DNA of 64,000 bases from Closterium sp. NIES-65 (Eukaryota; Streptophyta; Zygnematophyceae; Desmidiales; Closteriaceae): NCBI GenBank assembly GCA_948144175.1, contig CANXME010000095.1, positions 434,001-498,000 of the forward strand. The letters are read 5' to 3'. Under the pieces are notes generated by a model, which saw nothing but the letters and a program-made list of their open reading frames with translations, did not search any database and was not told the origin of the DNA. Of the stretch, positions 15,701 to 44,929 are shown one piece after another; within the stretch, counting starts at the first letter, position 1; the number at the start of each line of letters is the position of its first letter. The position numbers were made by a program, and so were the translations under genes.

Positions 15701-15864
<164 letters not shown>

Positions 15865-15949
15865 AATGGTCCGTATATTGATATGGCCGAAAGGTACACA
15901 CGTACAGATTCAGTAAGCATGCAAGTCCCAGCCTATCCCATCTACAGTT

Positions 15950-16430: not shown

Positions 16431-16559
16431 TGTCAGATATATATGACATAGCTGTTGTAGGCTATAGTGGGGTAGCACATATGGGGTACAGCTCTCTAGG
16501 GTTGCATTTGTACCCAACTTTCACTTAGTCATTCTCATTCCTGTTCTACAATTCTCACA
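16431..16559 (+). repeat. Copia C 5' LTR (129 bp)
   Basis: Starts TGTCAGATAT, ends ATTCTCACA, and is preceded by the target duplication AATGG. The following TGGTATAGAGCGG resembles a primer-binding site for a Met initiator-type tRNA, with one base missing from the usual plant TGGTATCAGAGC. Confidence 0.97.
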
Positions 16560-16674
16560 TGGTATAGAGCGGGTTCCCTGTGGGAACTTCGCCTAGGGCC
16601 CACCGAAGCGCGCCCCGAGGCGCGCTAACTTTTTTTTCCTCTCGCTCGAGCGACCCTCCGTGTCGCCCTTCCCT

Positions 16675-17660: not shown

Positions 17661-17741
17661 ACCTGCCCTGCCCGGTGAGCACAGTACCGCTGTCACTGCG
17701 TGCTCTTCCCCTACTGCTTGCACTGCTTCGCTGTCGTCGTC

Positions 17742-23500: not shown

Positions 23501-23634
23501 TGCGGCTTGCGTACGTGGCCTCTGAGGCCAACACTGCTGATGTGTTCACCAAGGCACTCGCGCCTTGTGACCATCAGCGCTTCTGCACCCAGCTGGGTCT
23601 TGTGCCTGTCTTGCCTCACTTGCTCTCCTCTTGA
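20561..23634 (+). pseudogene. Copia C linker, RT and RNase H (multiply frameshifted)
   Basis: One frame carries SSQDVTFDESVPFYRLFPYR and a long Gly/Ala/Glu linker to about 21950. A shift there leads to EDRQEELQCLATASPHL and the RT (MWIFRVKRPPGSPPVFKARY, LDFSTAFLQG). Another shift near 22467 leads to YVDD (in LEYVDDLVFA) and RNase H (DASWADD, SCEAEI). A small deletion at 23301 makes TAG, and a last frame carries AAQELRWLTYLLTDLG to the TGA at 23632-23634. At least three breaks make the protein non-functional as it stands. Confidence 0.92.
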
Positions 23635-23845
23635 CTTTACTTGTACTGTGACATATATATACCTGCTCTTGCTTGTCTTGTTTTATATATATATGTCTGT
23701 ACTCCTGCATGTGAACTGGCCTCTGGCCCTGCCCTTGTGCTCGGACTGTGTGGTGACTTTGTGATCCACCCTGAGCTTGCTTTGCTTTACTTTGCTTGAC
23801 TGGTCTTGTGACCCCTTGTTCTCCCCCACTTTGCCTATGGGGGTG

Positions 23846-23974
23846 TGTCAGATATATATGACATAGCTGTTGTAGGCTATAGTGGGGTAGCACATATGGG
23901 GTACAGCTCTCTAGGGTTGCATTTGTACCCAACTTTCACTTAGTCATTCTCATTCCTGTTCTACAATTCTCACA
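23846..23974 (+). repeat. Copia C 3' LTR (129 bp)
   Basis: Identical over 129 bases to the 5' LTR. Preceded by the polypurine-like TATGGGGGTG and followed by the target duplication AATGG (23975-23979). Confidence 0.97.
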
Positions 23975-25984
23975 AATGGGCTGCCGACTCACTGTGGACT
24001 ATGAATCCAGCATCCTGGGCCATGCTGATGCAAGCATCACGGACCTCGTTGTGAGTGTTGATGCGGTGCTTGCCGGTGCCGCAGTGTAGGAGGTGATTTG
24101 GGAGGCGGGGGTCGGTGATCGCTGTGTGGTCCGCGCAGTCACAGTTTTTGGGAGTGGAGAAGGGCAAGCCGAGCCGGAATCTGACGGCGTTGGCGAAGTG
24201 GACCAGTCCAATGCGCCTGTTCGGGACCATTGGTATCGCCGTCAACCAATCCCCGGTGCCGTATCCCGTCAAGGAAAACATCCGCTGCGTGTGGCCTGCA
24301 AGCGGATTCAGCGGCATCTTCCTCGTCTCCTGAACCTGCACCGCGTAACGACTGCCGTGGACTTGGAGGGCGAGGGCGTGCTGCAGCTTCACATCCGTCC
24401 GTTTCAGTCGCTCTCGTTCCAACAGTTCACGCGCGTCTGAAGGAAGGGTGGTCTCGCACTCAGTGAGCCAGGAGTGGAGTGGAGTGCTCTCGTCTCTCGG
24501 CAGGAGCATATGGCCGAATGCGTGCGACAGGGCAGAACCCGGAGTTAGAGTGAGCGTGGAGAAGAGCTGCGCCGCCTGCGTGAAACTTGCGACGAATCCG
24601 TATATGCCCTCGATGAGAGGGTCTGTAATCCCTACACCCCCAAGAGACGAAGGAAGGGTCGCCTGAGCCCACACGCGCGTCTGTTCTGCTCTACCCACTG
24701 GAGCTCGGATATTGGACGAGGTAAGCAATATCATCAAGAGATCGCGGCCCCACTGCGTCCAAGTGTCCCGGGAGACGAGATTGAGGGGGGTCGTCCGTGT
24801 GAGGTACGCCACGCGCCGGGAGATGCAGCGCGTGATCAGTAGCGAAGCGACCTGCGGATCTGCCCGCTCAATGAGTGGCAAGGGCTTGGCCATCTCCCCC
24901 AATTGCCCAGCCAGGAATGCAGATGCCCCGTCTGCTGCACCAATACAACTTCCCAACAGCCGAACGCCGTCCTTGCAGAAAGGGACTTCTGGCGGCAGCT
25001 CAGTTGAGTCGCACGTGCGTGCGCTCCATGCCGTGCACTTATGCGGGTTGTGCTTCAGGCCCAGGAATTCCAGCTTTGAGGTGAAGTGGGTGAAGGCAGC
25101 TACAGTTGCACGTTTTTCCCCCACGAAGATCACGTCGTCCGCATACGCCAAACAAAGCACATCAGGGTGCGCTGCTGCAGTGTCGGGAAGTGTGGGGTGA
25201 AGTCCCCGCCGCAAAAAGAAGAGGGCCCAGTGGATCGCCCTGGCGAACGCCTCGTTCACTTTGCAAGGGGTCGCTTGTAAAGTTTGCATCCAGATGCAGC
25301 TGCGACGGGTTACCGTAAGTCAGTTTGACCCATCGCAGCGTCAATTCTGACATCGCAGAGGGTGGAAATGTCCCAATTCGCGATGTCAGCAAATTTGTCC
25401 CCCATCTCCGCCAGCTCCACTGGCGAAAAATAGCGGGGGCGCTGCGGGGTCGATCCTGACACAGGGTGGAGGGATGCGGTCCGATGTCTGCGTGCACGAC
25501 TCGATGTCGTTGATTGCTGCCGAGTTGGATTCTCATCCGTTCGATCAGCATCCAATGGCCCTGCACGCCCCTCTGTTCCCACAGTGGGTAAATTGGCTGT
25601 CCCAGGTCTTCTCCTCTCCGTCCCTACCCTTGTTGCCTCTGCTCCATCCCCTTCATCTTCATTTTCACTCTCTAGCTCCACTTCCGCAATATAAGAGGGG
25701 TCATTTCTTTCCCCTTTTTCATTGGCAGCTACTAGAGCAATTAAAGCCCGACGTCCCGCAGCCTGAAACCCGTTCTCCGGCCCTCCGCCTGTTCCGCTAA
25801 CTGCCTGCCTCCTCTCTTCCCGTGCTTCCCGACCTCGCGATGGTGATTGCTGGAGCTCCCAAGCCATCGCCAGAGCGCATTGCCGCCTGGTCGGCAGTGG
25901 TCGCCAAGCCTCAGTATAAGCCCGGAAAGACGACCACGGCGTCGAAGCCCCCGGTGCCTCCGGCTCCGAAGCCCTCGACAACAT
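23975..25984 (-). pseudogene. L2 ORF2, N-terminal and RT parts
   Basis: Minus-strand frames from 25984: LSRASEPEAPG, QQSPSRGREAREE, SGTGGGPENGFQAAGRRA and RYFSPVELAEMGDKFA. After frameshifts and a deletion (about 25330-25500) the RT resumes: LTYGNPSQLHLDANF, GVRQGDPLGPLLFAAG, catalytic LAYADDVIFVG, LGLKHNPHKCTAWS, ITRCISRRVAYLTRTTPLNL. The zinc knuckle then reads CDCADHTAITDPRLPNHLLH plus C (C-x-C...H-x3-C). The frame ends at copia C and resumes at 16430. The early RT motifs are missing. Confidence 0.87.
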
Positions 25985-27252
25985 CCGCAGAAAAGCCTCC
26001 TCGCCCCGAACCCGCGGCTCCCCTTACCGCAGCTGCCGCTCAGTATGCGGCCCCTGCTGCTGCTGAGCGGTCCGCCTCGTCTGCGCCAACTGCTCCCCAA
26101 GCTCCACTTGAAGCCCCGACAAAGACTGACGCCGCACTCCCAGCTCCCGCTCCCGTTGGGCCACCTGCTGCCGGCCACGAGACGTAGACTGCTGCGCCTG
26201 CCTCGTCCCCGCAGGCGGCATCCGCCACCACTGGCGGCCCGGCACAGTTGATTGTGCCCCCTGCAGTGGACCCGGCTGCCCCTGTTGCGCCGCCCGTGGC
26301 CCAGCAGGCGCAGCCGGCGTCGCAGTCTTGTCCTCCCTCGCCGGACCGTCGCCTCTCTCGCCCCCATTCTCCAGCGCCCCAACAGGATCGGGCGTCCTCC
26401 CGGCGCCGGCGCAACTCTCTCCAGCGCAATCAACAGTCGGGTTAGTGGCAAGCGCATCGTGGCGGTCGCGGTGGCTGGCGGGGTCCTCGCGGTCGCAATG
26501 GCGGAGGATCGTATGATCCGCCCGTGAGGATGGCGGATCTGCAAAGGGCGGTAACGACCGCGATGCGTGAGGAGAGGGCTGCTCAGACCCAAGGCAGCTC
26601 GCACGTTGCCACCGCCTATCCAGCTCAGCATCAGGCGGCGCTTCCTGAGGTTCCGCTCTCTGCTGCACCAGTCCAATCTCGTGTTTTGGCCCCATCGCCT
26701 CCCGCTGTTGCTGCATCCGCTCCCGTTCCAGGGTCGCGGTTGCATCTGCCGCCCATCCCGCCTATGGCAGGAGTAGAATTTGTGGCTGTGGGAGGCGGAG
26801 CGGTGACGGCGGGTGGCCCGGCTCCTCTTGCCGTTGAGGAGCCATTCCAGTTCCTTGCTCAGGCGCTGCAACCCCCTCAGGCCCGTGTTCCGGAGGCGAC
26901 CCTCGGCCAGCTCTTCCGCCTCGCGGAGAGCTTTCACGCACTGCTACTGATACAGGTTCTTGCACATTCGTCTCTCCCTGCGGCCCCCCCTGAGTTGTTC
27001 CTGGATCGACATCGCGATTCTTGCCTGGACGCAGCCGATCAGCTTGCAGTGCTGCTGGCGCCCGTGCTGGCTGCGCCCGCCGAGGGAGGCGGTGCGGCGG
27101 CGGGGCCGCTTGATGAGGCTGTGCGCGGCTTGCGGCGCCATTTGCGTGCTGGTTTTGGAGCCGCCGTGATCGGCGCAAGCACGCTTGTGGTCCGGGAGCT
27201 GTGGCGCTCCCTGGCGGTCGTTCTTCACGCCCTCGGAGCTCACCGCATGTAG
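25840..27252 (+). pseudogene. L2 ORF1 on the strand opposite ORF2 (two in-frame TAGs)
   Basis: One frame without shifts runs from MVIAGAPKPSPERIAAWSAV to ALGAHRM and TAG at 27250-27252, about 470 codons. It is interrupted by TAG at 26185-26187 and 26443-26445. Parts in order: Pro/Ala-rich N-terminus, basic box SSRRRRNSLQR and GGRGGWRGPRGR, block RMADLQRAVTTAMREERAAQ (26530 on), Pro-rich spacer, then a helical domain (PEATLGQLFRLAE to the end). Against L1 the last 120 codons show about 40 silent and about 22 replacement differences by my reading, which points to past selection on this strand. The second TAG is at the same place as the double TAG in L1. Confidence 0.78.
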
Positions 27253-27368
27253 ACGCGGGCTCCGGCTCTGCCATTAGAGGTTTGCGCGGCTAGGCCGCGG
27301 TAGGACTTGCCATGTTTGTATTGCCGTTACGAGCAACTCTGTGTGTTGTGTGCTTGTCGTTCCCTCAC

Positions 27369-27387
27369 GCGCGGCCGAAGGCCGCGC
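27369..27387. repeat. GC-rich palindrome in the L2 5' region
   Basis: GCGCGGCC-GAA-GGCCGCGC, identical to the first palindrome of L1. The second palindrome is reduced to CGATCGTCGACGCG here. Confidence 0.8.
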
Positions 27388-27471
27388 TGTCGATCGTCGA
27401 CGCGAGCCGCTCGGTTAGGAGAAACAAATGAAGAGAGCCGAACAATGAGGAGAGCTAGCTGCAGAAGGGCA

Positions 27472-27481
27472 CTTTATACTA
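27472..27481 (-). promoter_or_regulatory. TATA-like box near the L2 5' end
   Basis: Reads TAGTATAAAG on the LINE sense strand, about 40 bases inside the 5' boundary with the short CT run (27523-27533). Confidence 0.45.
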
Positions 27482-27533
27482 GGCTGGAAAGTGTTGGAGA
27501 GGCTAAGGACTAGCTCCTAGGGCCTCTCTCTCT

Positions 27534-28976: not shown

Positions 28977-29303
28977 CCTCTCTCAAGCAGTCCTTCATTG
29001 ATAGGTTCATAGGGGTACAGGCATGGCAAGAACAGGTGCAGAACATCCCTAGTACTGCGAGCAGCCGGTAATGCTTGGCAAGGCCGAGGTGGGCACCACG
29101 GGTGGCCAGGCTAGCAAATCCTTTGTGACAGAGGGTCAGGAACTTGGGGGCAAGTGAAGGGGTGCAAAACACACAGAACAGGCCCACAAAGCAAGGCCCA
29201 CCGGAGCCAGGCAAGCAAGGCAAGGCAAGGCAATCCACAGAGGCCTGAGCCAGAGGGGCATTTGGCTAACACTTAGCCAGACCCTATGCAGTATCTATCC
29301 CGC

Positions 29304-32300
29304 TCATTGACCCATCACCCCATCCATCTCATCCTCCAGGACTTGCCAGAGATCCCCTAGGCTAGGTTCCCAGGGGTCCCTGGCAACCTGTGAGAAGGCT
29401 GCCACGTCCCCTATGTTCGACTTGTTCAGAAATGACGAGGCCTGTGAGCGCTGGAGCATAACGCTGAAGCGCTGCCTGTAGTGAGCGGTGAGCCGAGCAG
29501 TGGTGGTGGTGAGCCTCCCCTGGCGGAACCTGGTTTTCGCCGTCGAGGTTGCTAGCAAGCGGATGAACTGTTGGGTATCCGTAGCCAGGGCAGCGTAGGT
29601 TTCCACTGCCAACCCGAAGAAACCCACGTAGTCAGGCCGCCCCTCATAGAGCCTGTGTTTCTTCTCTGAGGCTTCTCGTGCCGCCCATCCAGGCGGCTTC
29701 CGGGCGCGCTTGTCACGGCACTGCAGCACTGGGTCGGTCACTGTCACGTCTGTGACCCAAGTCTCATTTGACTCCTTGTCCCGAATAGCCAGTTCTCCTC
29801 TCTTCCTCAGCACCAGTGGGGAAAAGGCGGTGGTTTTGTGGAAAACCGTGAAGTCGGCCTCCTTTGCCATCCGGAGCAGAGTAAACACTAGAGCATCATG
29901 TGTGCGGACTACATCTCCTCCGTGCCCACACCGTAAGAGGTGGTTTGCCAAGCTCGTGTCCGTGATTGCAGTGTTGGCTCGCTTGCACGGGCAGGTGGTT
30001 GTGACTGGCAGAGCCATTCCGAGGCGGAAGCCAAGTGCCAACGAGAACTGACCAGGGGCGAAAGTAAGGTCAGATCTCGTTGGGACGGCATGGAGCCAAT
30101 CCCCCGCGCCTACCCCTTGCAGGCTGATGAGCCGCAATGCGTGCCCACGGTCCTTCCCTGGGCGGTCTTCTATTGTGTCGGCCAGCAGCTCCGCCGCTCT
30201 CGTCTCGTTGATGTGGCGGGACAGGGTCAGTTGAAGGTTCCCCTGTCCCGCCGGCTACTCCCTGTAAGTGTGCAGTGCCGCCCGTGCCGCTAGGGGTAGC
30301 CCGGCCTCTAGAGTTGTCAGGGGGTTGATGCTAGGCGGGGCTGGGGTCCAATCAGGGCAGAGCAGCTCGACCGCCTTGCTCAAGAGATAGGCCTCTGGCA
30401 AGTTCATCTGGCTCAGCAGCTGCTGCGCCGCTGTGACCGAGGCGATGTAGGCCGTAGGTGCCTCGGAGACTGGGTCAAGAATCCCCAGGCCTCCCAGCCT
30501 GATCGGCAGACTCCCCTGGCGCCATAACAAACTCCTCTCCAGCTCATCTGAGGGTACTCGGAGCTTCGCTGCTGCTAGAGCCGTTGCCATCAGGTTCTCA
30601 CTCCAGCTCCTCCACTCATCTCTCCCCAGGACTTCCGCCGGTGTCGTCCGCAGGAAGTAGGACATTCGGCGGGATATGCTCCTCGTGAGGATGAGCATTG
30701 CACTCTGCGGGTGGAGTTGCGCCACCAGGGGCAGCGGGGCCGACGCCTCAACAAGCCGTGTTTGTGCTTGGGTGGTGCAGAAGGTGGGCACGACTACTGG
30801 GCTACCTAGGACTCGGATCCCGTCGGTGGTCTGCTGCAGGCCGATGGGAGGTGGCGTGCTGCCGTCTTCCGCCAGTGACTGTCCCCAGGCCGACGATTTC
30901 GCGATGTTGCAGCGGAGGCCGAGTGTTGCCAGCTCCCTGGTAATGGCCCCAAAGGCCTCATAGCAGGCCTCCTTTGGCCCCACGATCGTTATGTCGTCGG
31001 CGTAGGCTACTATCGCGACTTCCGGTAGGAGGGTCGCCGTACTTAGCAGGCATGGTTGGATAGCTGCCGCGAAGAGTAGTGGACCGAGCGGGTCCCCTTG
31101 ACGCACTCCGCGTGACGAGAGGATTTGGTTCACTCCGAACCGCTCGTCAACCAAGAGTGGCGACGGTGCCTCATAGAGTGTTCGGGCCAGGGGCATTAGC
31201 TGCAGTAGACTGGACTGGGAGAGAGCGTTGAAGAAAGTCGCCCGTTCGACACTGTTGAAGGCGTTTTCTATGTCCAGCTGCAGTGCTACTCGTGTGTCAT
31301 CGTCTCTCAGTAGCGATCTGACGGAGTGGACGATACACTCCGCGCCACCCGGTATCGCTACCCCAAACTGGACTGGTAGGAAAAAGGCCTTAATGTTCTC
31401 GGTTAAACCACGCAGTGCCGCCTTAGCTACAACTCGAATGATGGCCTCCCCTATCGCAATAGGCCGGACTCCACCGCCTGGTTTTTCTAGAGCGATCAAC
31501 CGTGATGGCAGCAGCAGATCTCGGGTCGTTTGTGTTTGAAACGTGCTCAGCAGGTACGTCACCACCTTAACGAGTAGAATAAGCACCTCCCCGTTTGCCA
31601 GTGCCGGATCCTTGAGGTGTTCAAAACAGGTGCCAGATGGGCCGCCTCCAACCCCGTTCGGGCATTTCTTCAAGATTTCGTGAAGTTCGTCTGTTGATAC
31701 ACTGAGGGTCGAACGATTGAACCCGGTAACCGGTCCTGGTAGCGAAGTTTCGGCCGCGGGGTGTTTCGCTTGAAGTGCAGTCAATGTTTCTGCCGTCGCT
31801 TTCGCGAGCGGTGTAGTTCGTAACGCTGCTACCGCCTTGGAAATGTTTCCTTTTCGTATCAATCCTTCCGCCCTCGCGCATAAACCTGCGTCATCCGGCT
31901 GGTGTCGTGTCGGGTTTTCATTGTCGGGGATAACACATGCGTCGGTGTACAGAGCCTGCCAGCTGCCGAGTTGGAACTAGTGCAGGCGCAGCTCTATTTC
32001 TGTCCACCGGCTGCCTTCAACAGGTTCGGAGGCCGGGCGTAGCGTCAGCCTCGGCAGATACAGCAAGATCGCCCATGCACCTGGGCAGTCAGGATTCTTC
32101 GAGAGTCGAATGAGGGGCGCCAGGAGACAGAGCGAGTAACTTTCCAGGATCCTGGGCGGCATTCTGCGGACCAAGAAGGGTTGATCCCCTTTTTGGAGTG
32201 GGTATTTATCCCACGTGGCTGCCAGCTCCCAGATGGCAGAATCCTCTGCCAGGTCAGACGGTGATCTGACCCTAGAGTCGCTCTGTCCCTCGTTGGTTGC

Positions 32301-33629
32301 GTCCCCATTTTCTCCCACCAGACTTGGGTTCCCCCTGGCTCTTGGCGCTCCCTCGTTCCCAATTCCCGCACCCTGTGGGTTATCGCCCCGGGGGTTTACC
32401 CCATTGTTCTGGGTTCTCCTTCGCTCCCCAGTTGTTCTCGTCATGTGTGTTCCCTCCTCCTCCTCCAACGAGATTTCCTCCGATGGTTCCGCCGACTCAG
32501 CTACATAATCACCCCCCTCATCGGTGTTTTCATCAGCTTCGTCGTTTTGATTCGGTGTATGCTCCGCTTGCTCCGGTCGCTCGTGGCGTTCCCGCCACGT
32601 TCCTGTTCTTACGAGCGCGGCCCTTCCGCCGACAATTGGGCCTCTCCCGCTGAGTCCCCTTCTGGCCCCTCGCACTCCTCCCCTTGCTCTGCGGGCCAAT
32701 TCTCCCCCCCGAAGGCCGGTGTTCTGCTCGACTCGGCCCGCCCGTTGCGGTGCTCCCGCCGGGATCCACGGTGTCACCATCGGCGTTGCCTGGCCAGCCC
32801 TTGGCTGGCCCCAGGTGATGCATTGCGCCCTCGTGGCACTGCGGGTTTCGCGCCGAGGAGTCTGTTGAGCCGTGGCGGCAGCCGTGGTCGTTCCCTCCTC
32901 TCCGCCCGTCGAGTTCCGCAATCCTTGACGCGGGGGTTGTTGCATTGCAGGGTCCGCCCTCGTGTTCCCTGTCACTATGGTCGGTGTGGGTGTGGGCCTG
33001 ATCCCGTCGCTTGCTTTCCCTCTCCCGTCACTTGTTCCCGCAGATGGCAAATGACGCTCTTGCCCTTGTGGCAACTGCCCTTGCAGAAGCCAGCCCAGGA
33101 GGGGTCCCGGGGGACCAAGTCCCAGCCCTGCTCCGGGCCGCCTCGGTGCTGGCCGGGCTCGAGGCGCCATTTTTCCGCGGGCGGCGCCGGCAGTCCCGAC
33201 AGCTCCGCGGCCCTGTCTACCGCTCCCCCCCAGGTTGTGTCCCTGCGTGTTTGCGCCCTCGGCAGCTACAGAGGTTTCGGCGTCCGCACCGGCGACCGGC
33301 GCGTCCTCCTCGGTCCGGGCTCCGCCCTGTTCCCCTGTCGCCGCAGTCGCCACCGCAGCCGGTGCAGACGCCGTTACAGGCTCCGGTGACGCCGTCAGCT
33401 CCACCGCCACGGTCGGTTCCTGAGCCACTGGTGGTCCCGTCTCCCCCGGTTGCCAGTGCCTGGGGGATGGGAGAGGGTGAGGCTGAGCCGCCGCCAGAGG
33501 CAGCGTCAGACCCGCCAGGCTCAGCAGCAGCCGTCGTCTCAGTCGCCTCAGCAGCAACCCCCTCCAGCCCCGCAGCAGCTGCATCCTCAACCGTCGCGGC
33601 CACCTCTGTCTCAGACCCCATTGCGCCAC
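29304..33629 (-). pseudogene. L4 ORF2: RT and restriction-like endonuclease (two stops, no shifts)
   Basis: A single minus-strand frame over 4.3 kb is broken only by TAG at 31977-31979 (L5 has Gln there) and by a stop at 30255-30257 (L5 has Arg). The order is acidic/basic N-terminal region (TGTWRERHERPEQ), FLVRRMPPRILESYSLCLLA, NGVGGGPSGTCFEHLKDP, LIALEKPGGGVRPIAIGEAI, LQLDIENAFNSVERATFFNA, GVRQGDPLGPLLFAAAIQ and catalytic VAYADDITIVG. Next are the C-x-C...H-x3-C knuckle (CPCKRANTAI...NHLLRC), then KRGELAIRDKESNETWVTDV (endonuclease) and DYVGFFGLAVETYAALA, ending GVMGQ. It would nick the target and prime reverse transcription there. The part right of about 33040 lies antisense to ORF1 and may not be genuine protein. 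Confidence 0.9.
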
Positions 33630-34103
33630 TTCCCCCTGCCGCCTCGGCCGCAGCCGCCTCGCCCCCCGTCGTCTCCTGTTCCTCCGGCGCCTCCCGATGT
33701 GCAGTTATTCCCACACGTTCCACGGGATCCTCATTTTGCCGCGCATGGGGCAGCGACTCCTTTCCACGTCGAGCAGTGCGTGATGCACGTGGGGACGTGT
33801 TTGACGTTGCTGTCCTACGTGCTGGACCAACTCCATGTGTGTCTGGCGCGGCAGGGTGTGGAGGTTGGGGGGATGTTGCCGTCGGAGCAGTCAGCGGCGG
33901 TGTCCGCCGCAAGGGAGATGCTGCATTATCTCCCCCTGATCGGGCTTGTCCAGGGCGCCCCTGGTGCTGCGCTCGGGCCTGGCCCTGGGGCAATGTTGCG
34001 GCTTGCTGAGTCTGCGCAAGGGGCCCCTCTTGGTCTTGTATCAGCCGCCGCATCCGTCCTACGCTGGATGGACGGGAGGCTGTGCTGGATACTCTCCGAG
34101 TAG
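33044..34103 (+). pseudogene. L4 ORF1 on the strand opposite ORF2 (one frameshift)
   Basis: It starts MANDALALVATALAEASPGG, matching MADGALGLVASALADAIPGG of L5 with nearly all differences silent or conservative. An Arg-rich box follows (RGRRRQSRQL ... LRPRQLQRFRRPHRRPARPP). A frameshift between about 33330 and 33460 moves to a frame with Gln/Pro-rich sequence (QQPSSQSPQQQPPPAPQQ). The C-terminal domain is helical: VEQCVMHVGTCLTLLSYVLD, QLHVCLARQG, GPGPGAMLRLAESAQGAPLG, then VLRWMDGRLCWILSE and TAG at 34101-34103. No known family recognised. Confidence 0.72.
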
Positions 34104-34438
34104 CCGGCTTGTCCCCTCTGCTTTCCCCCTTCCCAGCGTGTTTAGCCTTGGGCTTCCCCATGGCGGTGTAGGCACGCCCGGGGGTGTTGCTTTTGCTGTA
34201 GGTCCCTACCACTGCATGTTGTATCGAATGCTATTATGAATCATGTCATTGGAATTTCCTTGTCGAAGGCGGCCGGCGCGAGCCGCCGGTTTTGGAGAGT
34301 GAACTAGACTCACCAGTGAAGAATGAGCTCACAGGGATAGGTTTAGGGGCTTTATACTAGGGGGAGTACTCTAAAAACGGCTAAGGACTAGATCCTAGGG
34401 GAGAAGGTCTAAAAACGGCTAAGGACTGAACTAGGCTA

Positions 34439-34439
<1 letters not shown>

Positions 34440-34526
<87 letters not shown>
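34440..34526. repeat. (CT)n microsatellite between L4 and L5
   Basis: About 86 bases of CT with one TTC interruption. L5's 3' end begins at AGCGGTCCTTCATTGATAAG. Confidence 0.95.
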
Positions 34527-34527
<1 letters not shown>

Positions 34528-34767
34528 GCGGTCCTTCATTGATAAGATCAGAAAGGTACAAGCATGGCATGAGTAGAGACTAGGCCATTGTCTACCCTAG
34601 TTATGCCTGCATTCATGGCCCTGCAAGATATAGGTGCATGTGAGTGCTTCCTGCAACAAACCAGGCCTGGTGCCCTCAAGTCGCTCCATCTCCTGTTCCC
34701 TGTTCACCTAGCAGCCTGAACCCTTGTCCTCCCTGTTCAGCTGCCCTCCTGACCAGCCCGTGCTGCC

Positions 34768-37700
34768 CTACTCCCCCAGTACCCCCTCCATCTCATCCTC
34801 TAGCACCTGCCAGAGGTCTCCCAAGCTGGGCTCCCATGGATCCGTGGGTCCCTGAGGGAAGGCCGCCTCAGCAGCTCGGTTTGACTTGGAAAGGAAGGAC
34901 ACCGCCTGGCTACGCTGGAGCATTATGGACCACCGCTGTCTGTAGTGAGCTGTGAGCCGCGCAGCTGTGGTAGTGAGTTTGCCTTGGCGATATTTCTTCT
35001 TTGCTGCCGAATTTGCTAGCAGCCGCAAAAACTGCACCGTATCTGCTGCCAGGGCCCCGTATGTCTCCACCGCCAACCCAAAAAACCCCACACAGTCTGG
35101 GAGACCCTCGTAGAGCCTATGCTTGCTCTCGGAGGCTTCCTTGGCCGCCCACCCTGGCGGCTTCCGTGCTCTGGTGTCGCGCCTCTGTAGGACTGGGTCC
35201 GGTCACGGTCACGTCCGTGACAAAGGTTTCACCCGATTCCTGGTCCTGGATTGCTAAATCCGCCCTCTTACGTAGCACGGGGGGGGAGAAGGTGGTGGTT
35301 TCGTGGAAGGTCGAGAAACCTGCCTCCCTCGCCATCCGGAGTGCTGCATACACCAGTGCATCATGTGTCCTAACCACGTCTCCTCCATCAGCACATCTAA
35401 GTAGGTGATTCGGGAGCGAGGTGTCGCTGATGTCCGAGTTTTTCCGCTTGCAAGGGCACTTTACTGTAACCGGCAGCTGCATGCCTAGACGGAAGCCCAA
35501 CGCCATCGAGAGCTGACCAGGGGATAATGTAAGGTCAGCCCTCGTTGGCACCGCGTGCAGCCAATCTCCTGCCCCTATTCCCTGCAGGCCGATGAGTCTC
35601 ACTGCGTGCCCGTTGTCTTTCCCCGGCCTATCCATCATTGTGTCTGCCACGAGCTCCCTTGCCTTAGTCTCCCAGATGTGCCTGGATAGGAGCAACTGCA
35701 GGTTGCCTGCACCTGGTGGGCGTTCTCTAAAGGCATGCAGGGCTGCTCGTGCACTTGCAGGGAGCTCCTCCTCCAGTGCCGTGAGCTGGTTGCTTTTGGG
35801 GGGCTCCGGGTTCCAAGTGTGAGAGAGCAGTGTTGTTGCCCGGCTGAGTAGGTGCTCTTTCTTAATGTTCATCTGCTGCAGCAGTTGTTGCGCCGCTGTA
35901 ATTGATGCAATGTGTGCTGCCGGTGCCTCCGAGGTTGGGTCCACAATGCCCAGCCCCCCGAGCCGTATTGGGAGTGTTGCCTGTCGCCAGAGCAAACTCT
36001 GTTCGAGCTCACACCTCGGCATCCGTAGTTTCGCCGAGGTGAGCGCCGCTTCCAGCAAGGTTTCGCTCCATCCCCTCCAGCTCTCTCTCGGCAGTGCTTG
36101 TGATGGTGTGGTGCGTAGCAGGTAGGACACCCTCCTGCTGATGCTTCGCGAGATGATGAGCAGGGCGTGTTGAGGGTGCATCTGGGCGACTAAGGGGAGT
36201 GGTGCGGAGGCATCAGTGAGCTTCGCGACAATCTGATTTGTGCAGAATTCCTCTGTGCCGATGGGGCTGCCCAGCACCAGGATGCCTTCTCTGCTCATCT
36301 CTAACCCCTCTGGAGGCGTTCCATCCTGGGCTTCTATCCCGTTGGGTGTCCATGCTGAGGATTTCCCAATGTTGCACTTCAGCCCGCATGATGCTAGACC
36401 GCGGGTGATGGAGTCGAACGCTAAAAACGCCGCCTCCTGTGGGCCTACGATCGTGATATCATCTGCGTAGGCCACAACCGCCACCTCTGGGAGGAGCGTG
36501 GCCGTCGTGAGTAGGGTAGGTTGGATGGCCGCGGCAAAGAGTATTGGGCCCAATGGGTCTCCTTGTCGCACCCCCCTGGTGCTCGCTATGTGATCTGTGT
36601 TGAAGCGTGTGTCGACGAGCAGGCGGGAGGGTCCGTCATAGAGCGTGCGGACGAGGGGTATGAGCGGCTGCAGGTTGGACCGGGAGAGCGCAGTGAAGAA
36701 GGCAGAACGTTCTACGCTATTGAAGGCATTCTCGATATCTAGCTGCAGCGCGATGCACTTGCTATCGTCCCGCATGAGCGATCTGACGGTGTGTATGACA
36801 CATTCGGCTCCGCCCGTGACTCCCACTCCGTATTGCACAGGTAGGAAAAACTCTCTTATGTTCGGTGCTAATTCGCGTAGTGCCGCTTTCGCCACTATTC
36901 TGAGTATGGTCTCGCCAATGGCTATAGGTCGTACCCCGCCCCCTGGCTTTTCTAGGGCGATGAGGCGTGAAGGGAGTAGCATGTCGCGGACCTCCTGGGT
37001 CTGGAGTGTTCCAAGCAGGTGGTTAACTAAGCGCGTAAGTAGTATGAGAGCCTCCTCGTTTGTGTGGGCAGGATCCTTCAGGTGTTCGAAGCAGGTGCCT
37101 GATGGGCCTGCTCCCACTCCATTCGGGCATTTCGCCAGCAGATCGCGGAGGTCGTCATGGCTGATGCTGAGTGAGGCAGTGGCATACCCTGTAACCAACG
37201 CAGGTGTTGGCGTTACTGCGGTTGGGTGTTTCGCTCGTAGCGCTGCGAGGGTCTCTGGCGATGTGTCCGCCAGTGGTGTTACGCGTAACGCTGCAACCGC
37301 TTTCGAAATGTTCCCTTTTTTGACGAGCCCTTCTGCTCTAGCACACAGGCCCACATCGTCAGGCTGGTGTCGTAACGGTTCTCCTGTGTAGGGGATGACA
37401 CAGGCCTCAGTGTAGAGCGCGTCCCACCTGCCGAGCCTGAATTGGTGTAGCCTGTGCTCGATTTCCGCCCACCGAGTCCCTTCCACTGGCTCCGGCAAAG
37501 GTCGCAGGGTTAGCCTCGGCAGGAACAGCAACAGTTTCCAACCTCCTGGACAGTCGGGATATTCCGTCGCTCTCAGGAGCGGGGTCAGTAGACATTGGGT
37601 GTAGCTCTCCAATAGCTTAGGTGGCAGCCGTCGGACAAAGAAGGGCTGATTGCTCTGCTGGAGCTTTGTCGTGTCCCATGATGCCACCTGTTGCCATAGT

Positions 37701-39442
37701 CCAGTGTCCCTCGCCAGGTCAGATGGTTGACGTATGCTTGGCTCTGGCTGTGGTGCTGGTCCCGCGCCATCTACCGGTTCCTCATTGTTGCCTCTCCCGC
37801 CATCTCCAAACCTTGCCCTACCCCGTGTGGCAATTCTTTCTTCACTCTCCCCCCCGGACTGTGAGAGTTCCTCCGAAACGTGCTCATTGTCAGGATTAAA
37901 TTCACTCCCACTGTCGTTGTCGTCAGTGCTTTCCTCCTCATTCGCCACCTCGTGCTCAATCTCCGGACGGTTGTGTCGCTCCCGCCACGTCCCGGATCTA
38001 ACCAGTGCTGGCTCTCCGCCCACGACTGGCCCTCTCCCCCCTCTTCCTCCTCGTCCCCCGCCTTGGTCTCCGCGTGCTCTTCCCCTGCCAGCGCCGTTGT
38101 TCCCTCCTTGCCCTCCGCGGGTTGCGCTCGCTCGTCCCGCCGGCATCCACGGCGCTTGCCTCACGGTCGATCGTCCGCCTTTCGGCGGTCCCCAGGCGAT
38201 TCTGCCTCCTCTCGCGCGGCTTCGAGTCGCCCTGCCTTCCGTTTCTGGCTGGGCGTCGTTCCCGGCTGCTGTTACTCCTACCTGTGGTTGTGGTCGAGTC
38301 GCTGTCCGTTCGGTTTGCGGTTCGCCTCCGCCTCCACCCCTTGCGGTCTCCCTGCTGCTCGTACCCCTCGATGGCTGACGGTGCCCTTGGACTTGTGGCG
38401 TCTGCTCTTGCAGATGCCATCCCCGGAGGGGCCCCGGGGGACCCGGTGCCAGGCCTGCTCCGAGCCTTCGCGGTGTTGGCTGGACGCGGATCCTCTTCCC
38501 AGTCGTCTCGCGGCCGGCGTGGCGGGCCTCCTCGGCATGGTCGCCGTGGTGGCTCGCACCAGCCGGTGTATCGCTCCCCTCCTGGGCGGACTCATGCGTT
38601 TCTGCGACCGCGTCAGCAGCAGTCCTTCCGTCGTACTCGCCGTCAGTCGGGCCTTCCTCCGCCTCTCCCGCGTTCTCCGCGATCGTTGGTGCCAGGGTCC
38701 TCTCCTCCGCCGTCCCATCTTCTTCCGCAGGCTCAGTCGCCGCCGTCGCAACCCTCGTCGTCGCCGCTCCCGCCACAGTCCCCATCTGTTCTGCAGGCAG
38801 CTCCTCCGCCTTCTTTGTCCCCGTTGCCGTCAGCTCCCTCTGCCTCTGCGGTTGTTCTGCCCGCTCCAACAGCACCGCCTGCACTCCCCCCGCGCGCGCT
38901 CCCACAGTTGTTTCTTGGGGGGTGTGAGATCCCAAGACCATGTGAGGTGTTGTCGACTCCCCAGCCGGCTGCCGCACCCGTAGCCTCTGCTGCCGCTCCC
39001 GATGAGCCCTGTAGTCGGTGGGAGGAGTGTCCGCCTGTAGAGCGGCTTCGTCGCGTCGAGCAGCGCATTGCGACCGTGGGGACTGTCCTGGAGCTGCTGG
39101 CGTTGGTGCTTGATCAGCTGCATTCAGGGCTGTTACGTGGGCGTGTTGTCTGCCCACCTTTGTCGAAGAGGCAGCGGGCCGTTGTGGTGACGGCGGCGCG
39201 GCGGATGATGGGGAGCCTCCCGCAGATGGGCCTCGAGACAGGCTCCCCGGGGCTGGGTTCTGGTCCCGGGCCTTCCGCTGTGAGGCGGTTGGCCTCTTCA
39301 GTCCGTCGTGCCCCCCTCGACCTTGTGCCAGCCGCCTCGGCGCTGTTGCGCTGGTTGGACGGGCGGCTGGCTTTGATCCTCGCCGATTAGGTTCTGCTTT
39401 CCACTTCTCGGCCTTGCTTGTCCTGGGCTTGGGCTTTCCCAT
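34768..39442 (-). pseudogene. L5 ORF2: RT plus restriction-like endonuclease (one frameshift)
   Basis: A minus-strand frame of 1441 codons runs from MGKPKPRTSKAEKWK (39442) to 35117. It then continues in another frame to LGE and TAG at 34768-34770, because of one extra base at about 35198-35202 (GGTCCGGTC where relatives have GGTCGGTC). Motifs: FFVRRLPPKLLESYTQCLLT, NGVGAGPSGTCFEHLKDP, LIALEKPGGGVRPIAIGETI, LQLDIENAFNSVERSAFFTA, GVRQGDPLGPILFAAAIQ, catalytic AYADDITIVG (about residue 990), the knuckle CPCKRKNSDI...NHLLRC (about 1330) and RADLAIQDQESGETFVTDVT (endonuclease, about 1390). The first roughly 360-475 residues lie antisense to ORF1, are low-complexity and poorly conserved with L4, although both copies start MGKPK. 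The true start is uncertain. Confidence 0.9.
38371..39390 (+). CDS. L5 ORF1, opposite strand to ORF2 (open)
   Basis: Start chosen at MADGALGLVASALADAIPGG because L4 begins MANDALALVATALAEASPGG at the same place; the frame is open further upstream to 38005. It gives 339 residues. Residues 30-95 are Arg/Gly-rich (RGRRGGPPRHGRRGG, FLRPRQQQSFRRTRRQ), suiting nucleic-acid binding. Residues 95-210 are Pro/Ser-rich. Residues 214-339 form a helical domain shared with L4: RVEQRIATVGTVLELLALVL, DQLHSGLLRG, GSGPGPSAVRRLASSVRRAP, LLRWLDGRLALILAD, TAG. The architecture resembles LINE ORF1/Gag, but the gene is head-to-head with ORF2 rather than upstream on the same strand. No known domain identified; function inferred. 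Confidence 0.7.
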   Translation: MADGALGLVASALADAIPGGAPGDPVPGLLRAFAVLAGRGSSSQSSRGRRGGPPRHGRRGGSHQPVYRSPPGRTHAFLRPRQQQSFRRTRRQSGLPPPLPRSPRSLVPGSSPPPSHLLPQAQSPPSQPSSSPLPPQSPSVLQAAPPPSLSPLPSAPSASAVVLPAPTAPPALPPRALPQLFLGGCEIPRPCEVLSTPQPAAAPVASAAAPDEPCSRWEECPPVERLRRVEQRIATVGTVLELLALVLDQLHSGLLRGRVVCPPLSKRQRAVVVTAARRMMGSLPQMGLETGSPGLGSGPGPSAVRRLASSVRRAPLDLVPAASALLRWLDGRLALILAD

Positions 39443-39519
39443 GTGTGTTGTGGTTACGCCAGGGGGTTTTGTGGTGGGTTCTTGTGCCGGTGTTGCATAT
39501 TAAGCGTTGTGAACCCTGT

Positions 39520-39521
<2 letters not shown>

Positions 39522-39600
<79 letters not shown>
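39522..39600. repeat. (CT)n microsatellite between L5 and L6
   Basis: 79 bases of uninterrupted CT. L6's 3' end begins immediately after, AATGGTCCGTATATTGATAA. Confidence 0.97.
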
Positions 39601-39601
<1 letters not shown>

Positions 39602-39703
39602 ATGGTCCGTATATTGATAAGCCAGAAGGGTACACACATGCAGTGAGAGACAGCCGGTACTAACACGCAAGGTAACCTAGACTATCCAACCCCACTAAGT
39701 CAC

Positions 39704-42700
39704 CTAGAGCTCAAGAAGAGGCTCAAGGACGGTAAAACAGTCCCCAAGGTACAATTCCTGCCCTATCCCTCCTACAGGCGGGTTCTCTGCAGCCGCCGCT
39801 TCTCCTAACTTGATCATGAGACCCACGGATTGAGCCCTCTGCAGTGCAACCGACCACCTCTGCCTGAACTGGTGCAGAAACTTCGCGGCATGATAGGATT
39901 TGGAGTCGGCGTTGAAGTATCGCCGAGCCGCCGTGTCCGCAAGGAGTTTCAGGAACACAGGGACCTCCGCACAAGGGCAGCCATAGGTCTCTACGGCGAG
40001 GGGGAAGAAGCCCACTGTCTCTGGCAGGTTTTCATAGTGCTTGATCTTTTTATCCGCCTGCTCCCTGGCCGCCCATCCCCTTCCTTTCCTAGCCTCCGGG
40101 TCCCTGGTACTAATAGGGTCCGTTACCATCACATCACACACCCAAACCGCCCCACTGCTCCTGTCCGTCATGGTAAAGTCCGCGGTCTGCTCCTCTATGG
40201 GGCAGTACACGTTTGTTTCTCTGTGTACGATGAACCCCGCGTCTTGTGCCATGCTGATGCAAGCGTCGCGGAGCTCATTATGAGTATTCGTACGGTGCTT
40301 CCCTGTGCCGCAGCGGAAGAGGTGGTTGGGGAGGCGCGGGTCTGTGATAGCGGTGTGGTCAGTACAGTCACAGTTCTTCGGAGTGGAGAAAGGGAGGCCC
40401 AGCCGGAAGCGCACGGCGTTGCTGAAGTGTACCGGCCCGATGCGCCGAGAAGAAGCTACTGGTACAGCCGTCAGCCAGTCTCCTGTGCCGTAGCCAGTCA
40501 GTGAGAACATTCTCTGCGTGTGCCCAGACAGAGGATTCAGTCTCATTCGCCTTGTCTCTTGGACCTGAACCGCGTACCGACTCCCCTGCACTTTGAGGGC
40601 CAGCGTGTGCTGAAGCTTGATGTCTGACCTAGAGAGCCGTTCCTGGTCAACGACGTCGCGTGCATCTGTGGGCAGGGCAGTCTCGCACTCTGTGAGCCAG
40701 GAATGGAGCGGTGTGGTGACGTCCAGGGGCAGAATCATGTGGCTGTGTGCTCGGGTCAGTGCTGTGTCTGGTGCTAGCGTCAGGGAGGAAAAGAAGAGCG
40801 CGGCTTGTGTGAAACTGGCTACGAAGCCGTAGACCCCTTCCACGAGCGGGTCCGTCAATCCTAAGCCACCCAGGGACGATGGGAGCGAAGCCTGCGCCCA
40901 CACTCTCGACTGCTCCGTGCTACACGTCGGGACTTTAATCCCGCAGGATGTCAGGAGCGCAGCTAGTAGGTCCCGCCCCCACTGCGCCCAGGTGTCTCGT
41001 GGCAGGAGGTTCAGTGGCGTGGTCCTAGTGAGGTATGCGACGCAGTCTAGAAATGCAGCGGGTCAGTAGCAGGGAGGCTACTTGGGGGTCGACGCGTTCT
41101 AACAGTGGCAGCGGCTTCGCCATTTCCTCCAGCTGCCCTGCCAGGAACTTGGCCGCACCCGCCGCTGGCCCCAGGAAGCTACCTAGAAGGCGTATCCCGT
41201 CCTAGGACAACGGGACTCCTGGCGGTAGCAGAATCTCCTCGTCGCCTCTCGTGCTCCATGCCGCACATTTCTGCGGATTGTGTGTAAGCCCCAGCTGCGC
41301 TAACTTGCTCGTGAAGAAATTGAATGCTGCTACAGTGTCTGCGTTGTCCCCCAAAAACGTCACGTCGTCTACATACGCCAAACAGAGAACGTGGGGGTGG
41401 GCATCTGCAGTTTCGCGAAGTGCTGGGTGGATCCCTGCTGCGAACAGTAGAGGACCGAGTGGGTCTCCTTGTCTCACCCCGCGTTCACTGTTCAGTGGGT
41501 GGCTGGCGAAATTCGAAACAAGGTACAGCTTCGACGGGTTATTGTACGTTAGCCGCACTAGAGGGAGCAGTGACGAAAGGTTGTTGTCGCAAATCCCGTT
41601 GATGATTGCTTGTCGCGAAATGCTGTTAAAAGCATTCGAAATGTCTGTCTGTAACACCACGCAGCGGTCCCTCGAGTCAACGAAGGCACGTGCAACGTGG
41701 ATGTTCGCTTCGGCCCCCCCAGGTACCGCCACCCCGTACTGTAGAGGCAGGAAATGGTCACGTGCAGCTTCCCCAATTGCGGTCAGAGCAGCCTTGCCTG
41801 CGAGGCGCGTCAGGCATTCGCCAATTGCAATTGGCCAAACCCCCCCGCCTGGCTTGGACAGCGCTATTAGGCGCGACGCCGTCAGCAGGTCTGCCACTGG
41901 CTCGGGTAATTTGCCTGCCAGGATGGTGTTTACTAGGGCATGTAAGTGGGTGCAGACCGATGCGTTGGTTGCCGATGCGTCGCGAAGGTGTTCGAAGGCG
42001 GTTCCGGACGGTCCGGTCCCCACACCATTTTCGCACCGACCCAGAAGCTTGGCGAAATCGGCTTGGCTGATTTGCAGGTTCGGGCCTGGTGTCGTTGGCC
42101 AGCTCAGCTGCTCGTCATCGGCTCGGGGGTGTTTCGCGCGGAGTTCTTCCAAAACTGCTGGGCCAGGTGGGCAGACTGGGGTTGACTCGTGGGCCAGCAC
42201 GGCTCGGCGGAGGCTTCCTCGCTTGGCCAGGCCTTCCGCCCTGCTGAGAACTCCCGCCTCGTCTGGCTGGTGACGTGGAGGCGGTGGGGTGTTGTTGGCT
42301 TCGATCGTGTCAGAGTACAGCTGCCCCCATTCGCCACGCTGGAAAGCTCTGAGACGGGCTTTGACTTCGGGCCACTTCGGTCTTCTTGGCGACGGTTGGC
42401 GAAGTGTGAGCCGAGGGAGAAACAGCAGCAGTCGCCAGCCTGCGACTGAGTCAGGGTTTCGCGCGAGGTGTAGGAGCGGGGTGAGTAACACCAGCGAAAA
42501 TAGCTGACACAAATTGGGCGGTAATCGGCGCGACAGGGATGGCTGACGACTGTCGCAAAGTGCCGCCAAGTCCCAGTCATCGATGGCTGCGAACAGGTCT
42601 GATCGTTTCGCCAATTCCCCTGGCGAGAAGTAGCGGGGGAAATGTGCTTGGTTTGTGGACGCGCTGCGAGAGCGCGCTGCCTGATGTCTCTGCTCGCGCC

Positions 42701-44147
42701 TTTGTGCGTCGCTCTGTCCAGGAGTTGGGATTGTGGCCGTCCGATTGATCTGTTGCCTGCCTCCTTCCTCGTCCGCCTCATGCTCACCAGCTCGCCTCCC
42801 AGTCCCTAGCCTCTCTCCTGCATCATCTGTTTCCTCCTCGTCGTCTTCACTTTGTGGGAGCGGCTCCTCCCTATAAGAAGGGTCCCGTCGTTCCTCCTCC
42901 TCATCAGTTCTCTCCAGAACTGTTAAAGCCTGTCTCCCTACCGCTTGGAAGCCATTCTCCGGTCCACCCCCTGCGCCGCTAGCCGTCACTCTCCCTCTGC
43001 CTCGCCCTCCTCGGCCTCGCGATGGTGATTGCTGGGCCGACCGATTATTCGCCAATGCACGTTGGCGCTGCGTCGGTTGCGTTCGGAAAGCCACCGCCTG
43101 CCTCCGGAACGGGGACCATGCCGACGGGCTCCCCAACGCTGCCTGTTCCGAGGCTCGTGACAGTAGACGCTGAAATCCTTCCTCGCCCCGCACCGTCGTT
43201 TCAAGAGGCCTTGGCGTCTCTTCCTGTCGAGCCGCCTGTTCCCCTCGCGGCGGCGTTTGATGTATCTGCTCCGTCAGTCGTTCCTCGAGCTGCCGACCCT
43301 GCTGTTCCGTCAGCGGCCGCCGCGCGGGCGGTTGTTGCTGGCGGCATGACTGACCAGCCGGAGGGGTCCGCCACCACTGACGTCCAGGGCCAGCCGGCGC
43401 TTCTCGCCTCTCCGGCTCCCCCGTCTGCGCCGCCTCCGGCGCAGGCGCCTCCTCTGCCTGTGCAGGCGGGATCTGCTCCTGCGCTGGCCGTGGCTGTTCC
43501 CTCTGCGCCTCCCGCGATTGCGCCCTCTGCACCGTCTGCGGGGGCTCCTCTCGTGCCACCTGCTGATGCTCCCGTTGCCCAGCCGGGTGTTGCTCCGCCT
43601 GCTCCGCCCGAGGCGGGTCCGTCTGCGCCGTCTGTGGCCGTTCCTGGTGCGCCACTGGTGGCGAATCCCTCTGCGCCGACCGCCCGGCGTCCGCAGTCTC
43701 CTGGCCGTCGTCAGCAGCGGCCGCAATCCCCAGCGCATCAGGACGTACGCGCGACGTCCCGGCGCCGCCACAATTCTCCGCGGCGCCGCGGTTCTCAGGC
43801 GAACTGGGCGGCGCAACGCGGCGGCCGAGGCGGCTGGTGGGGGCCGCGTCAGCGGGATGGTGGCTGGGGGTCTGATCAGCCGGTGACGATGGCTGATCTG
43901 CAGCGCGCGGTGTCTGCTGCTGTGCGCGAGGAGCGGAACGGGCAGGCGAGCCAGAGCAACTCCCCGCGTGTTGCTCAGTCCCCCGCGGCACCTCCTCCAG
44001 CAGCACCTCCTGCCCTGGCAGCCCCTCGTCCTCCTGCAAACGTTCCTCCTCCTCATGTCCCCGTGGCTGCGCATTATCCGTCTGTGCTGCCCGTTGATCC
44101 CGCTCCCCCATCCACAGGTGCGGCGTACTCGTTCTCAGCCCTACCAC
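39704..44147 (-). pseudogene. L6 ORF2: RT and restriction-like endonuclease (stop plus frameshift)
   Basis: A minus-strand frame of 981 codons (44147-41202) is Gln/Glu/Arg-rich at first, then FPRYFSPGELAKRSDLFAAI, NLCQLFSLVLLTPLLHLARN, NGVGTGPSGTAFEHLRDA, LIALSKPGGGVWPIAIGECL, LQTDISNAFNSISRQAI, GVRQGDPLGPLLFAAGIH and LAYVDDVTFLG (YVDD where other LINE copies have YADD). It ends at TAG in PLS-stop-DGI (41202-41204; relatives have Lys). A 1-base insertion near 41050 follows. The frame from 40903 carries CDCTDHTAITDPRLPNHLFR plus C, EEQTADFTMTDRSSGAVWVC (endonuclease) and the C-terminus CFTVLEPLLEL. The N-terminal part overlaps ORF1 head-to-head. In the same frame 44376-44150 is closed, so ORF2 does not run antisense through all of ORF1 in this family. 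Confidence 0.9.
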
Positions 44148-44527
44148 GGCCTCAGCGTCCGGTCGCGGTTCCGGAGGTGACCCTTGGTCAGATCTGGCGC
44201 CTCTCGGAGGCGCTGCGGGTCGTGCATCTGGTGCAGGTGTATGGTCATGCCGCCCTGTCCCAGGGCGACTCGCTAGTGGGCGGCCCTCGGGACGATTGTT
44301 TCGCGGCAGCTGATCACCTCGCCGAGCTGCTAGCGCCCGTGTTGGCTGCGCCCGCGCCGGGTGGGCTTGCGGGGGTCAGGCCCCTTGGTTCTGCTGTGCG
44401 TGGGCTGCGGCGGTTGTTGCATGTAGGGACTGGATCCGGGGCGATCGCCGCAGGCACGGTGTTGGTGCGTGAGTTGCATCGCACGCTGTCAGGGCTGCTT
44501 GCTGTGTTTGATGCGGATCAGGTCTAG
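43022..44527 (+). CDS. L6 ORF1, opposite strand to ORF2 (open, 501 aa)
   Basis: Start MVIAGPTDYSPMHVGAASVA, shared with L1 and L2. Residues 60-245 are Ala/Pro-rich. Residues 246-285 are a basic Arg/Gly box (SRRRHNSPRRRGSQANW, RGGRGGWWGPRQRDGGW). VTMADLQRAVSAAVREERNG (about 288-307) predicts an amphipathic helix. A Pro/Ala spacer follows. Residues 384-501 are the conserved helical domain: VPEVTLGQIWRLSEALRVVH, CFAAADHLAELLAPVLAAPA, AVRGLRRLLHVGTGSGAIAA, LVRELHRTLSGLLAVFDAD, ending TAG at 44525-44527. It has no stop or shift. It overlaps the ORF2 N-terminal frame by up to 1.1 kb, antisense. I do not recognise a named family; an ORF1/Gag-like RNA-binding role is inference. Confidence 0.72.
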   Translation: MVIAGPTDYSPMHVGAASVAFGKPPPASGTGTMPTGSPTLPVPRLVTVDAEILPRPAPSFQEALASLPVEPPVPLAAAFDVSAPSVVPRAADPAVPSAAAARAVVAGGMTDQPEGSATTDVQGQPALLASPAPPSAPPPAQAPPLPVQAGSAPALAVAVPSAPPAIAPSAPSAGAPLVPPADAPVAQPGVAPPAPPEAGPSAPSVAVPGAPLVANPSAPTARRPQSPGRRQQRPQSPAHQDVRATSRRRHNSPRRRGSQANWAAQRGGRGGWWGPRQRDGGWGSDQPVTMADLQRAVSAAVREERNGQASQSNSPRVAQSPAAPPPAAPPALAAPRPPANVPPPHVPVAAHYPSVLPVDPAPPSTGAAYSFSALPRPQRPVAVPEVTLGQIWRLSEALRVVHLVQVYGHAALSQGDSLVGGPRDDCFAAADHLAELLAPVLAAPAPGGLAGVRPLGSAVRGLRRLLHVGTGSGAIAAGTVLVRELHRTLSGLLAVFDADQV

Positions 44528-44542
44528 CGTCCGCGTGCCCCG

Positions 44543-44571
44543 GGAGCTCACCGCGTGTAGATGCGGGCTCC
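44543..44571. promoter_or_regulatory. Stem-loop just past the L6 ORF1 stop
   Basis: GGAGC-tca-CCGCG around TGTAGA pairs with TGCGG-GCTCC, with one G-T pair. It is the counterpart of 15394-15422 and 27235-27263. Confidence 0.5.
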
Positions 44572-44667
44572 TCTTGCTCCATGCTTCACCTAGGCTAGAG
44601 TGGTATGTGCCATGCGTGTATGTGTGCCTATAGTTGCTTGTTTTGTGTGTTTCTTGCCACCCCTCAC

Positions 44668-44719
44668 GCGCGGCCGAAGGCCGCGCTGTCGAGCGTCGGC
44701 CGCCGAAGGCGGCCGGCGC
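44668..44719. repeat. Two GC-rich palindromes in the L6 5' region
   Basis: GCGCGGCC-GAA-GGCCGCGC (44668-44686) and GCGTCGGCCGCC-GAA-GGCGGCCGGCGC (44693-44719, one G-T pair). Same position and order as in L1. Confidence 0.85.
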
Positions 44720-44789
44720 GAGCCGCTTGGTTAGGAGAGAAACCCAACCAAAAACTGAATAATGAAGAGGCAACAAGGCCTGCTGAGGC

Positions 44790-44799
44790 CTTTATACTA
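44790..44799 (-). promoter_or_regulatory. TATA-like box near the L6 5' end
   Basis: TAGTATAAAG on the LINE sense strand, about 50 bases inside the (CT)n boundary. It is repeated in the duplicate at 45002-45011. Confidence 0.45.
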
Positions 44800-44845
44800 G
44801 GACTAGGGAGGCTAGGGGAGGCTTGAGAGGCTAAGTTCCTAGGTG

Positions 44846-44929
<84 letters not shown>

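Follow-up and report, generated by a model that had tools for sequence, protein, structure and literature searches.

The window analysed here, a 64,000-nucleotide stretch of DNA from Closterium sp. NIES-65, contains seven delimited LINEs, recognised by self-comparison and junction reading, which are R2-like and all lie in one orientation. In five of the seven, a plus-strand open reading frame (ORF1) stands head-to-head with an ORF2 on the minus strand, and self-comparison also reveals LTR elements nested inside some of these related LINEs. The features are as follows:

ending on the right at 15704, with no left end identified, minus strand: L1, a family A LINE
13982..15411, plus strand: ORF1 of L1, decayed by a frameshift and stops
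15862..27527, minus strand: L2, a family A LINE with a nested LTR element and a short (CT) run at its right end
about 16430-23974: LTR element nested in L2
25840..27252, plus strand: ORF1 of L2, with two in-frame stops
27535-28977: L3, a fragment lacking either end and without ORF1
28988..34442, minus strand: L4, a family B LINE with a short (CT) run at its left end
33044..34103, plus strand: ORF1 of L4, frameshifted
34526..39522, minus strand: L5, a family B LINE
35117..39442, minus strand: ORF2 frame of L5, 1441 open codons, antisense across the entire ORF1
38371..39390, plus strand: ORF1 of L5, 339 aa, intact
39600..44847, minus strand: L6, a family A LINE flanked by (CT)n runs (ends read, ORF2 by tblastn)
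39704..40903, minus strand: C-terminal part of L6 ORF2, with CCHC-like and endonuclease-like motifs (alignment A3; weak collinear R2 match)
41202..43200, minus strand: N-terminal part of L6 ORF2 and reverse transcriptase (RVT_1, Pfam E 3.9e-17)
43022..44527, plus strand: ORF1 of L6, 501 aa, with ATG, R/G box, MADLQ block and C-terminal domain
43022..43199, minus strand: head-to-head overlap, with ORF2 constraint over the first ~60 ORF1 codons (dN/dS, pattern switch)
44789..44801, minus strand: TATA-like motif near the L6 5' end
45143-57571: L7, a LINE with a nested LTR element

The LTR element of L7 (46235-52273) has 402-bp ends that are 99.75% identical, and it is therefore probably a recent insertion. 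The 5' part of L7 (55950-57571) has tandem repeats and no recognised ORF1, and neither the ORF1 profiles nor the four ORF1 relatives tried matched this element convincingly; L7 is either another subfamily or rearranged. DNA relatives of the window were not found in viral contigs or genome contigs, a set from which the window's own genome records were perhaps excluded.

Long (CT)n runs adjoin most element ends, with short ones at the right of L2 and the left of L4, and (CT)n/(GA)n runs occupy the intervals between elements at 15704-15861, 34442-34526, 39522-39600, 44847-44934, 45059-45143 and 57571-57756. This placement, seen in one window, suggests a candidate microsatellite-targeting LINE whose tandem arrays would be built by insertion beside earlier copies. 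On the ORF2 strand, the 3' ends of L2, L4, L5, L6 and L7 share a common TATCAAT...GGAC/TGAC-type end followed by a GA run, while the 5' ends are more variable. Togen families specific for (TG)n and HERO families specific for microsatellites have been reported (PMC4640811).

At the 5' ends, a TATA-like motif is present in L1, L2, L4 and L6, and L5 is without it; five matches occur in the window (at 44789..44801 and at 15646, 27471, 34349 and 45001) versus 0.06 expected. This CCTAGTATAAAG-like motif lies on the minus strand, roughly 40-95 bp inside the element 5' end, so if it is a TATA box, the start that it sets would fall inside the element, which is unexplained. A 212-bp tandem duplication with 98% matches (44723-45143) at the L6 5' end spans a (CT)n run and the TATA-like motif. 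The family A leader on the ORF2 strand can also form GC-rich hairpins at 15515-15600, 27355-27425 and 44655-44735 (z -2.79, -1.05 and -2.14, respectively), for which no Rfam match was obtained; a search of the window for known RNA families at the 5' end yielded one sub-threshold match only, and none was accepted.

In ORF2, Pfam identifies RVT_1 in both frames scanned, those of L5 and L6, and it was the sole match there at E up to 1, with no APE-type endonuclease. When the L5 ORF2 was used alone as a query, group II intron reverse transcriptases scored slightly above R2, and with a profile of six ORF2 pieces, R2 chains became the best matches (E 2.7e-9). The C-terminal region contains a second stretch collinear with the R2 structure 9nl2, scoring 5.8 bits and not significant alone, and CCHC-like and endonuclease-like motifs were read by eye in alignment A3. 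We therefore take ORF2 as R2-like, with a putative restriction-like endonuclease proposed from the 5.8-bit stretch and the eye-read motifs. No sense-strand ORF1 was recognised in these LINE copies.

The first-pass annotation had described plus-strand frames in five copies of two families (L1, L2 and L6; L4 and L5) and had called their layout ORF1/Gag-like; all five frames are present, and the Gag-like identity is putative, no Pfam or PDB relative having been found. No RRM, CCHC or capsid-type domain was matched in Pfam, either in 69 family A members or in the scanned frames of L6, L5, L4, L2 and L1, and no PDB match fell below E 0.029. The candidates that did surface, namely MIC19_MIC25 (6/69 members, best E 0.0015), Teg14 (E 0.51) and mL77 (E 0.029), were taken as chance or low complexity and rejected. 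A role in RNA binding or assembly may be guessed from the composition of the R/G box and the C-terminal domain. The C-terminal domains of family B and of a further group, C, belong to one family (hhalign E 3.1e-36), and no significant relationship was detected between those of A and B/C (hhalign E 0.36-0.71).

Five usable DNA copies of ORF1 are available, all from one window and three of them decayed, and the length of a frame proves nothing here because antisense frames within ORF2 reach 355 open codons. Such meaningless frames speak for the reading that plus-frame conservation is a by-product of ORF2 constraint or of GC-rich composition, with ORF1 being no gene; the evidence that counts is the codon-position pattern. 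The first position of a plus codon lies opposite the first position of an ORF2 codon in both families, and the second lies opposite the third, which means that the two frames predict opposite patterns of difference. In 150-nt windows, differences on the ORF2 side tend towards plus position 2, and those within ORF1 tend towards plus position 3. A two-segment model places the switch between 43188 and 43291 for L6/L1, at about 43195 for L6/L2, at about 38346 for L5/L4 and at about 14259 for L1/L2, and permutations gave a switch as good as the observed one in 0, 5, 0 and 41 of 2000 cases, respectively. Two counts on which the first-pass annotation had based its proposal of selection on the plus frame were reproduced: the last 120 codons of L1 and L2 differ by 40 silent and 21 replacement codons (noted as about 40 and 22), with differences of 10/15/50 by plus position, and the first 34 codons of L4 and L5 show differences of 4/7/12 by plus position.

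Pairwise dN/dS (w) was calculated between window copies by the Nei-Gojobori method on both strands, and the values are rough, since in many segments dS approaches or exceeds 1 and identity is about 50-70% in parts of the alignments. Over the whole ORF1, plus w is 0.28 for L1/L2, 0.53 for L6/L1, 0.58 for L6/L2 and 0.47 for L5/L4, versus minus w of 1.25, 0.95, 1.06 and 1.29, respectively. The C-terminal domain gives plus and minus w of 0.14 and 1.98 for L1/L2 (15050-15408), 0.51 and 1.50 for L6/L2 (44161-44524), and 0.40 and 1.80 for L6/L1 (44161-44524); across ORF1 segments outside 43022-43199, plus w ranges from 0.14 to 0.56 and minus w from 0.85 to 1.98. The ORF2 side is the mirror image in L6/L1, L6/L2 and L5/L4 (plus w 1.29-1.82, minus w 0.24-0.33), and the L1/L2 pair lacks this mirror image, as w left of ORF1 is 0.71 in both frames. 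The low plus w and the third-position bias thus bear out the proposed selection on the plus frame.

The junction itself differs between the families. Within 43022-43199, family A shows minus w of 0.33 and 0.37 and plus w of 1.58 and 1.85; the first ~60 codons of its ORF1 carry the signal of ORF2, not that of ORF1, and here ORF2 constraint does explain plus-frame conservation. The ORF1 ATG, present in L1, L2 and L6, lies inside this stretch, so ORF2 could be what keeps it. In family B, the plus frame is under selection from the ATG onwards (38371-38620, with w of 0.33 for plus and 1.18 for minus). The layout described by the first-pass annotation as a divergent gene pair is upheld as head-to-head genes on opposite strands; it is not purely divergent, given that the two genes of family A share about 180 nt and that the ORF2 frame is mostly open across ORF1.

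Simulations addressed whether ORF2 constraint could account for the plus-frame conservation. The C-terminal segment of L1 has an observed plus pN/pS of 0.21, and none of 200 neutral simulations reached it (plus pN/pS at least 0.52), nor did any of 400 minus-constrained simulations at two strengths, 200 each (at least 0.83 and at least 1.16); plus-constrained simulations reached it in 0/200 and 121/200 runs at the two strengths. Beyond the first ~60 family A codons, the codon-position pattern and dN/dS run opposite to what a by-product predicts and the simulated values never come down to the observed one. ORF2 constraint or composition as the cause of the plus frame is rejected on the basis of dN/dS and the simulations, and that ORF1 is no gene at all is very improbable. 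For both families, the results support ORF1 as a protein-coding gene under purifying selection that faces ORF2 head-to-head from the opposite strand.

A separate question is raised by the ORF2 frame across ORF1, where eight stops occur. Permutation of synonymous codons predicts 28.6 (sd 4.1), with 0/1000 permutations as low, and 15 control ORFs together have 341 versus 338.2 expected. Taken singly, L6, L2, L5 and L4 are depleted (P 0.005-0.018) and L1 is not significant (P 0.089); among single controls, one is low (the L6 ORF2 core, 0.017) and two are high (0.990 and 0.999). This depletion would fit dual coding, in which ORF2 is translated from near the 5' end through the region antisense to ORF1 (the 1441 codons in L5) as an N-terminal extension in which nearly every residue is free to vary provided that no stop arises; ORF1 would still be a real gene. 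Agreeing with it, no common ORF2 ATG is seen at the junction, and L5 (39442) and L4 (34147, both minus strand) each have an MGKPK start in the ORF2 frame, just past the ORF1 stop. Against it, the non-stop junctions GT|A and AT|A are depleted as well (2 versus 9.0 expected; controls 82 versus 123.3), so that TpA avoidance may explain most of the stop depletion, and only TC|A is stop-specific (1 versus 5.1; controls 185 versus 149.4). The copies are related, which makes their stop counts non-independent, and the minus frame is without amino-acid constraint over ORF1. No such constraint is needed, because minus values similar to those observed already follow from plus-only constraint in simulations (60 per setting): one setting gives 0.68 for plus and 1.15 for minus, and L5/L4 shows 0.65 and 1.17. 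Dual coding is possible but doubtful. Its fullest form, in which the genomic RNA would yield an ORF2 of ~1400 residues whose N-terminal third is antisense to a selected, divergently transcribed and trans-acting ORF1, is unlikely; if it were true, ORF1 would act on transcripts that are the complement of its own mRNA.

The listed protein relatives of ORF1 all come from Closterium. With the best 8000 candidates scored in each case, the 120 listed of 190 matches to L6 ORF1 are Closterium proteins, as are 14/14 matches to L5 ORF1, and the 25 proteins listed for the end of P0135, itself among them, are from Closterium as well. The strains encountered were NIES-65, NIES-64, NIES-53, NIES-54, Naga37s-1 and Yama58-4. 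The L5 ORF1 is 100% identical within P0122 of strain NIES-65. The family A C-terminal domain is found in 120/120 listed relatives (96/122 domain matches full-length) by a profile trained on these same matches over three rounds. MADLQ occurs in 79/120 listed family A relatives, GG.GGW in 69/120 and MVI(A/E)G at the start of 37/120 gene models, with a related motif within 61.

The gene models also bear on whether ORF1 could be a separate mobile element or a captured host gene lying beside the LINEs by chance, as two ORF1 families with C-terminal domains lacking a detected relationship might indicate; repeated gain or replacement of ORF1 would then be conceivable. Among 158 gene models, 17 extend at E 1e-6 or better into a part antisense to ORF2 and none matches ORF2 in sense; these 17 (7 family A, 9 family B and 1 group C) come from strains Naga37s-1, NIES-53, NIES-64, NIES-65 and Yama58-4, and include P0122, possibly the L5 copy of this very window, as well as P0131, which is without the C-terminal domain, and P0022, a weak case with 31% identity. 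Such extensions in both families and in group C, together with the identical place and strand of ORF1 in five of seven elements, in two families and within the same units, argue against a separate origin, which we regard as very unlikely. According to the genome paper, the Closterium gene models drew on RNA-seq, transcript assemblies and Augustus (PMC10407611). The use of RNA-seq in gene prediction does not prove that the ORF1 loci are transcribed, and since models can be wrong, those extending antisense support the layout rather than prove it. The layout recurs in two families here and in gene models of other Closterium strains.

We consider it likely that these are ambisense LINEs, with a minus-strand ORF2 and a plus-strand ORF1 protein of ~340-500 residues encoded in the element's 5' third, start facing start. 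Target-primed reverse transcription would copy the ORF2-sense RNA, a second, divergent transcript would supply the ORF1 protein, and this protein may act in trans in RNA binding or assembly. Twin priming makes 5' inversions, and the head-to-head layout may have arisen from a fixed 5' inversion of an ordinary ORF1-ORF2 element. The general view is that a LINE with two ORFs translates both proteins from a single RNA, on which they act with cis preference. This link would be lost in a LINE whose selected, ORF1-sized gene sits on the opposite strand, since its genomic RNA could not serve as mRNA for ORF1. Such a layout raises questions of trans supply, of double-stranded RNA and silencing, and of how such an inversion became fixed.

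An opposite-strand ORF1 looks unusual for LINEs: among the matches listed in the open-access literature, none describes a LINE with this arrangement, and the ten papers listed out of 2,019 for one query do not mention Closterium. The excerpted text on Terminons contains nothing on opposite strands as a precedent (PMC6431247). TRE5-A of Dictyostelium is likewise a LINE with opposite-strand RNA, made from its own promoter (PMC4559204), but this promoter lies at the 3' end and the excerpt mentions no antisense protein. Retand LTR retrotransposons, as far as the excerpt describes them, have conserved antisense ORFs that encode TRP28 between pol and the 3' LTR (PMC11963269); they resemble the present case as a retrotransposon lineage with conserved antisense ORFs, and differ in being LTR elements and in that TRP28 is absent from the Pfam matches of the Closterium ORF1. 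Primate L1 ORF0, in the part of the source consulted, is a translated ORF of 71 aa with an antisense promoter in the LINE 5' UTR (PMC8554170). Both are antisense ORFs in the 5' region of a LINE, but the ORFs here have 339-501 aa and no sense ORF1 is recognised beside them. The R2/CRE/R4/NeSL/HERO elements resemble the present ones in that R2 chains top the ORF2 profile search, the C-terminal region has candidate CCHC-like and endonuclease-like motifs, and the units lie between repeats. R2-type elements usually have one ORF, and the Closterium elements differ from them by an additional gene of ORF1 size that is encoded on the other strand.
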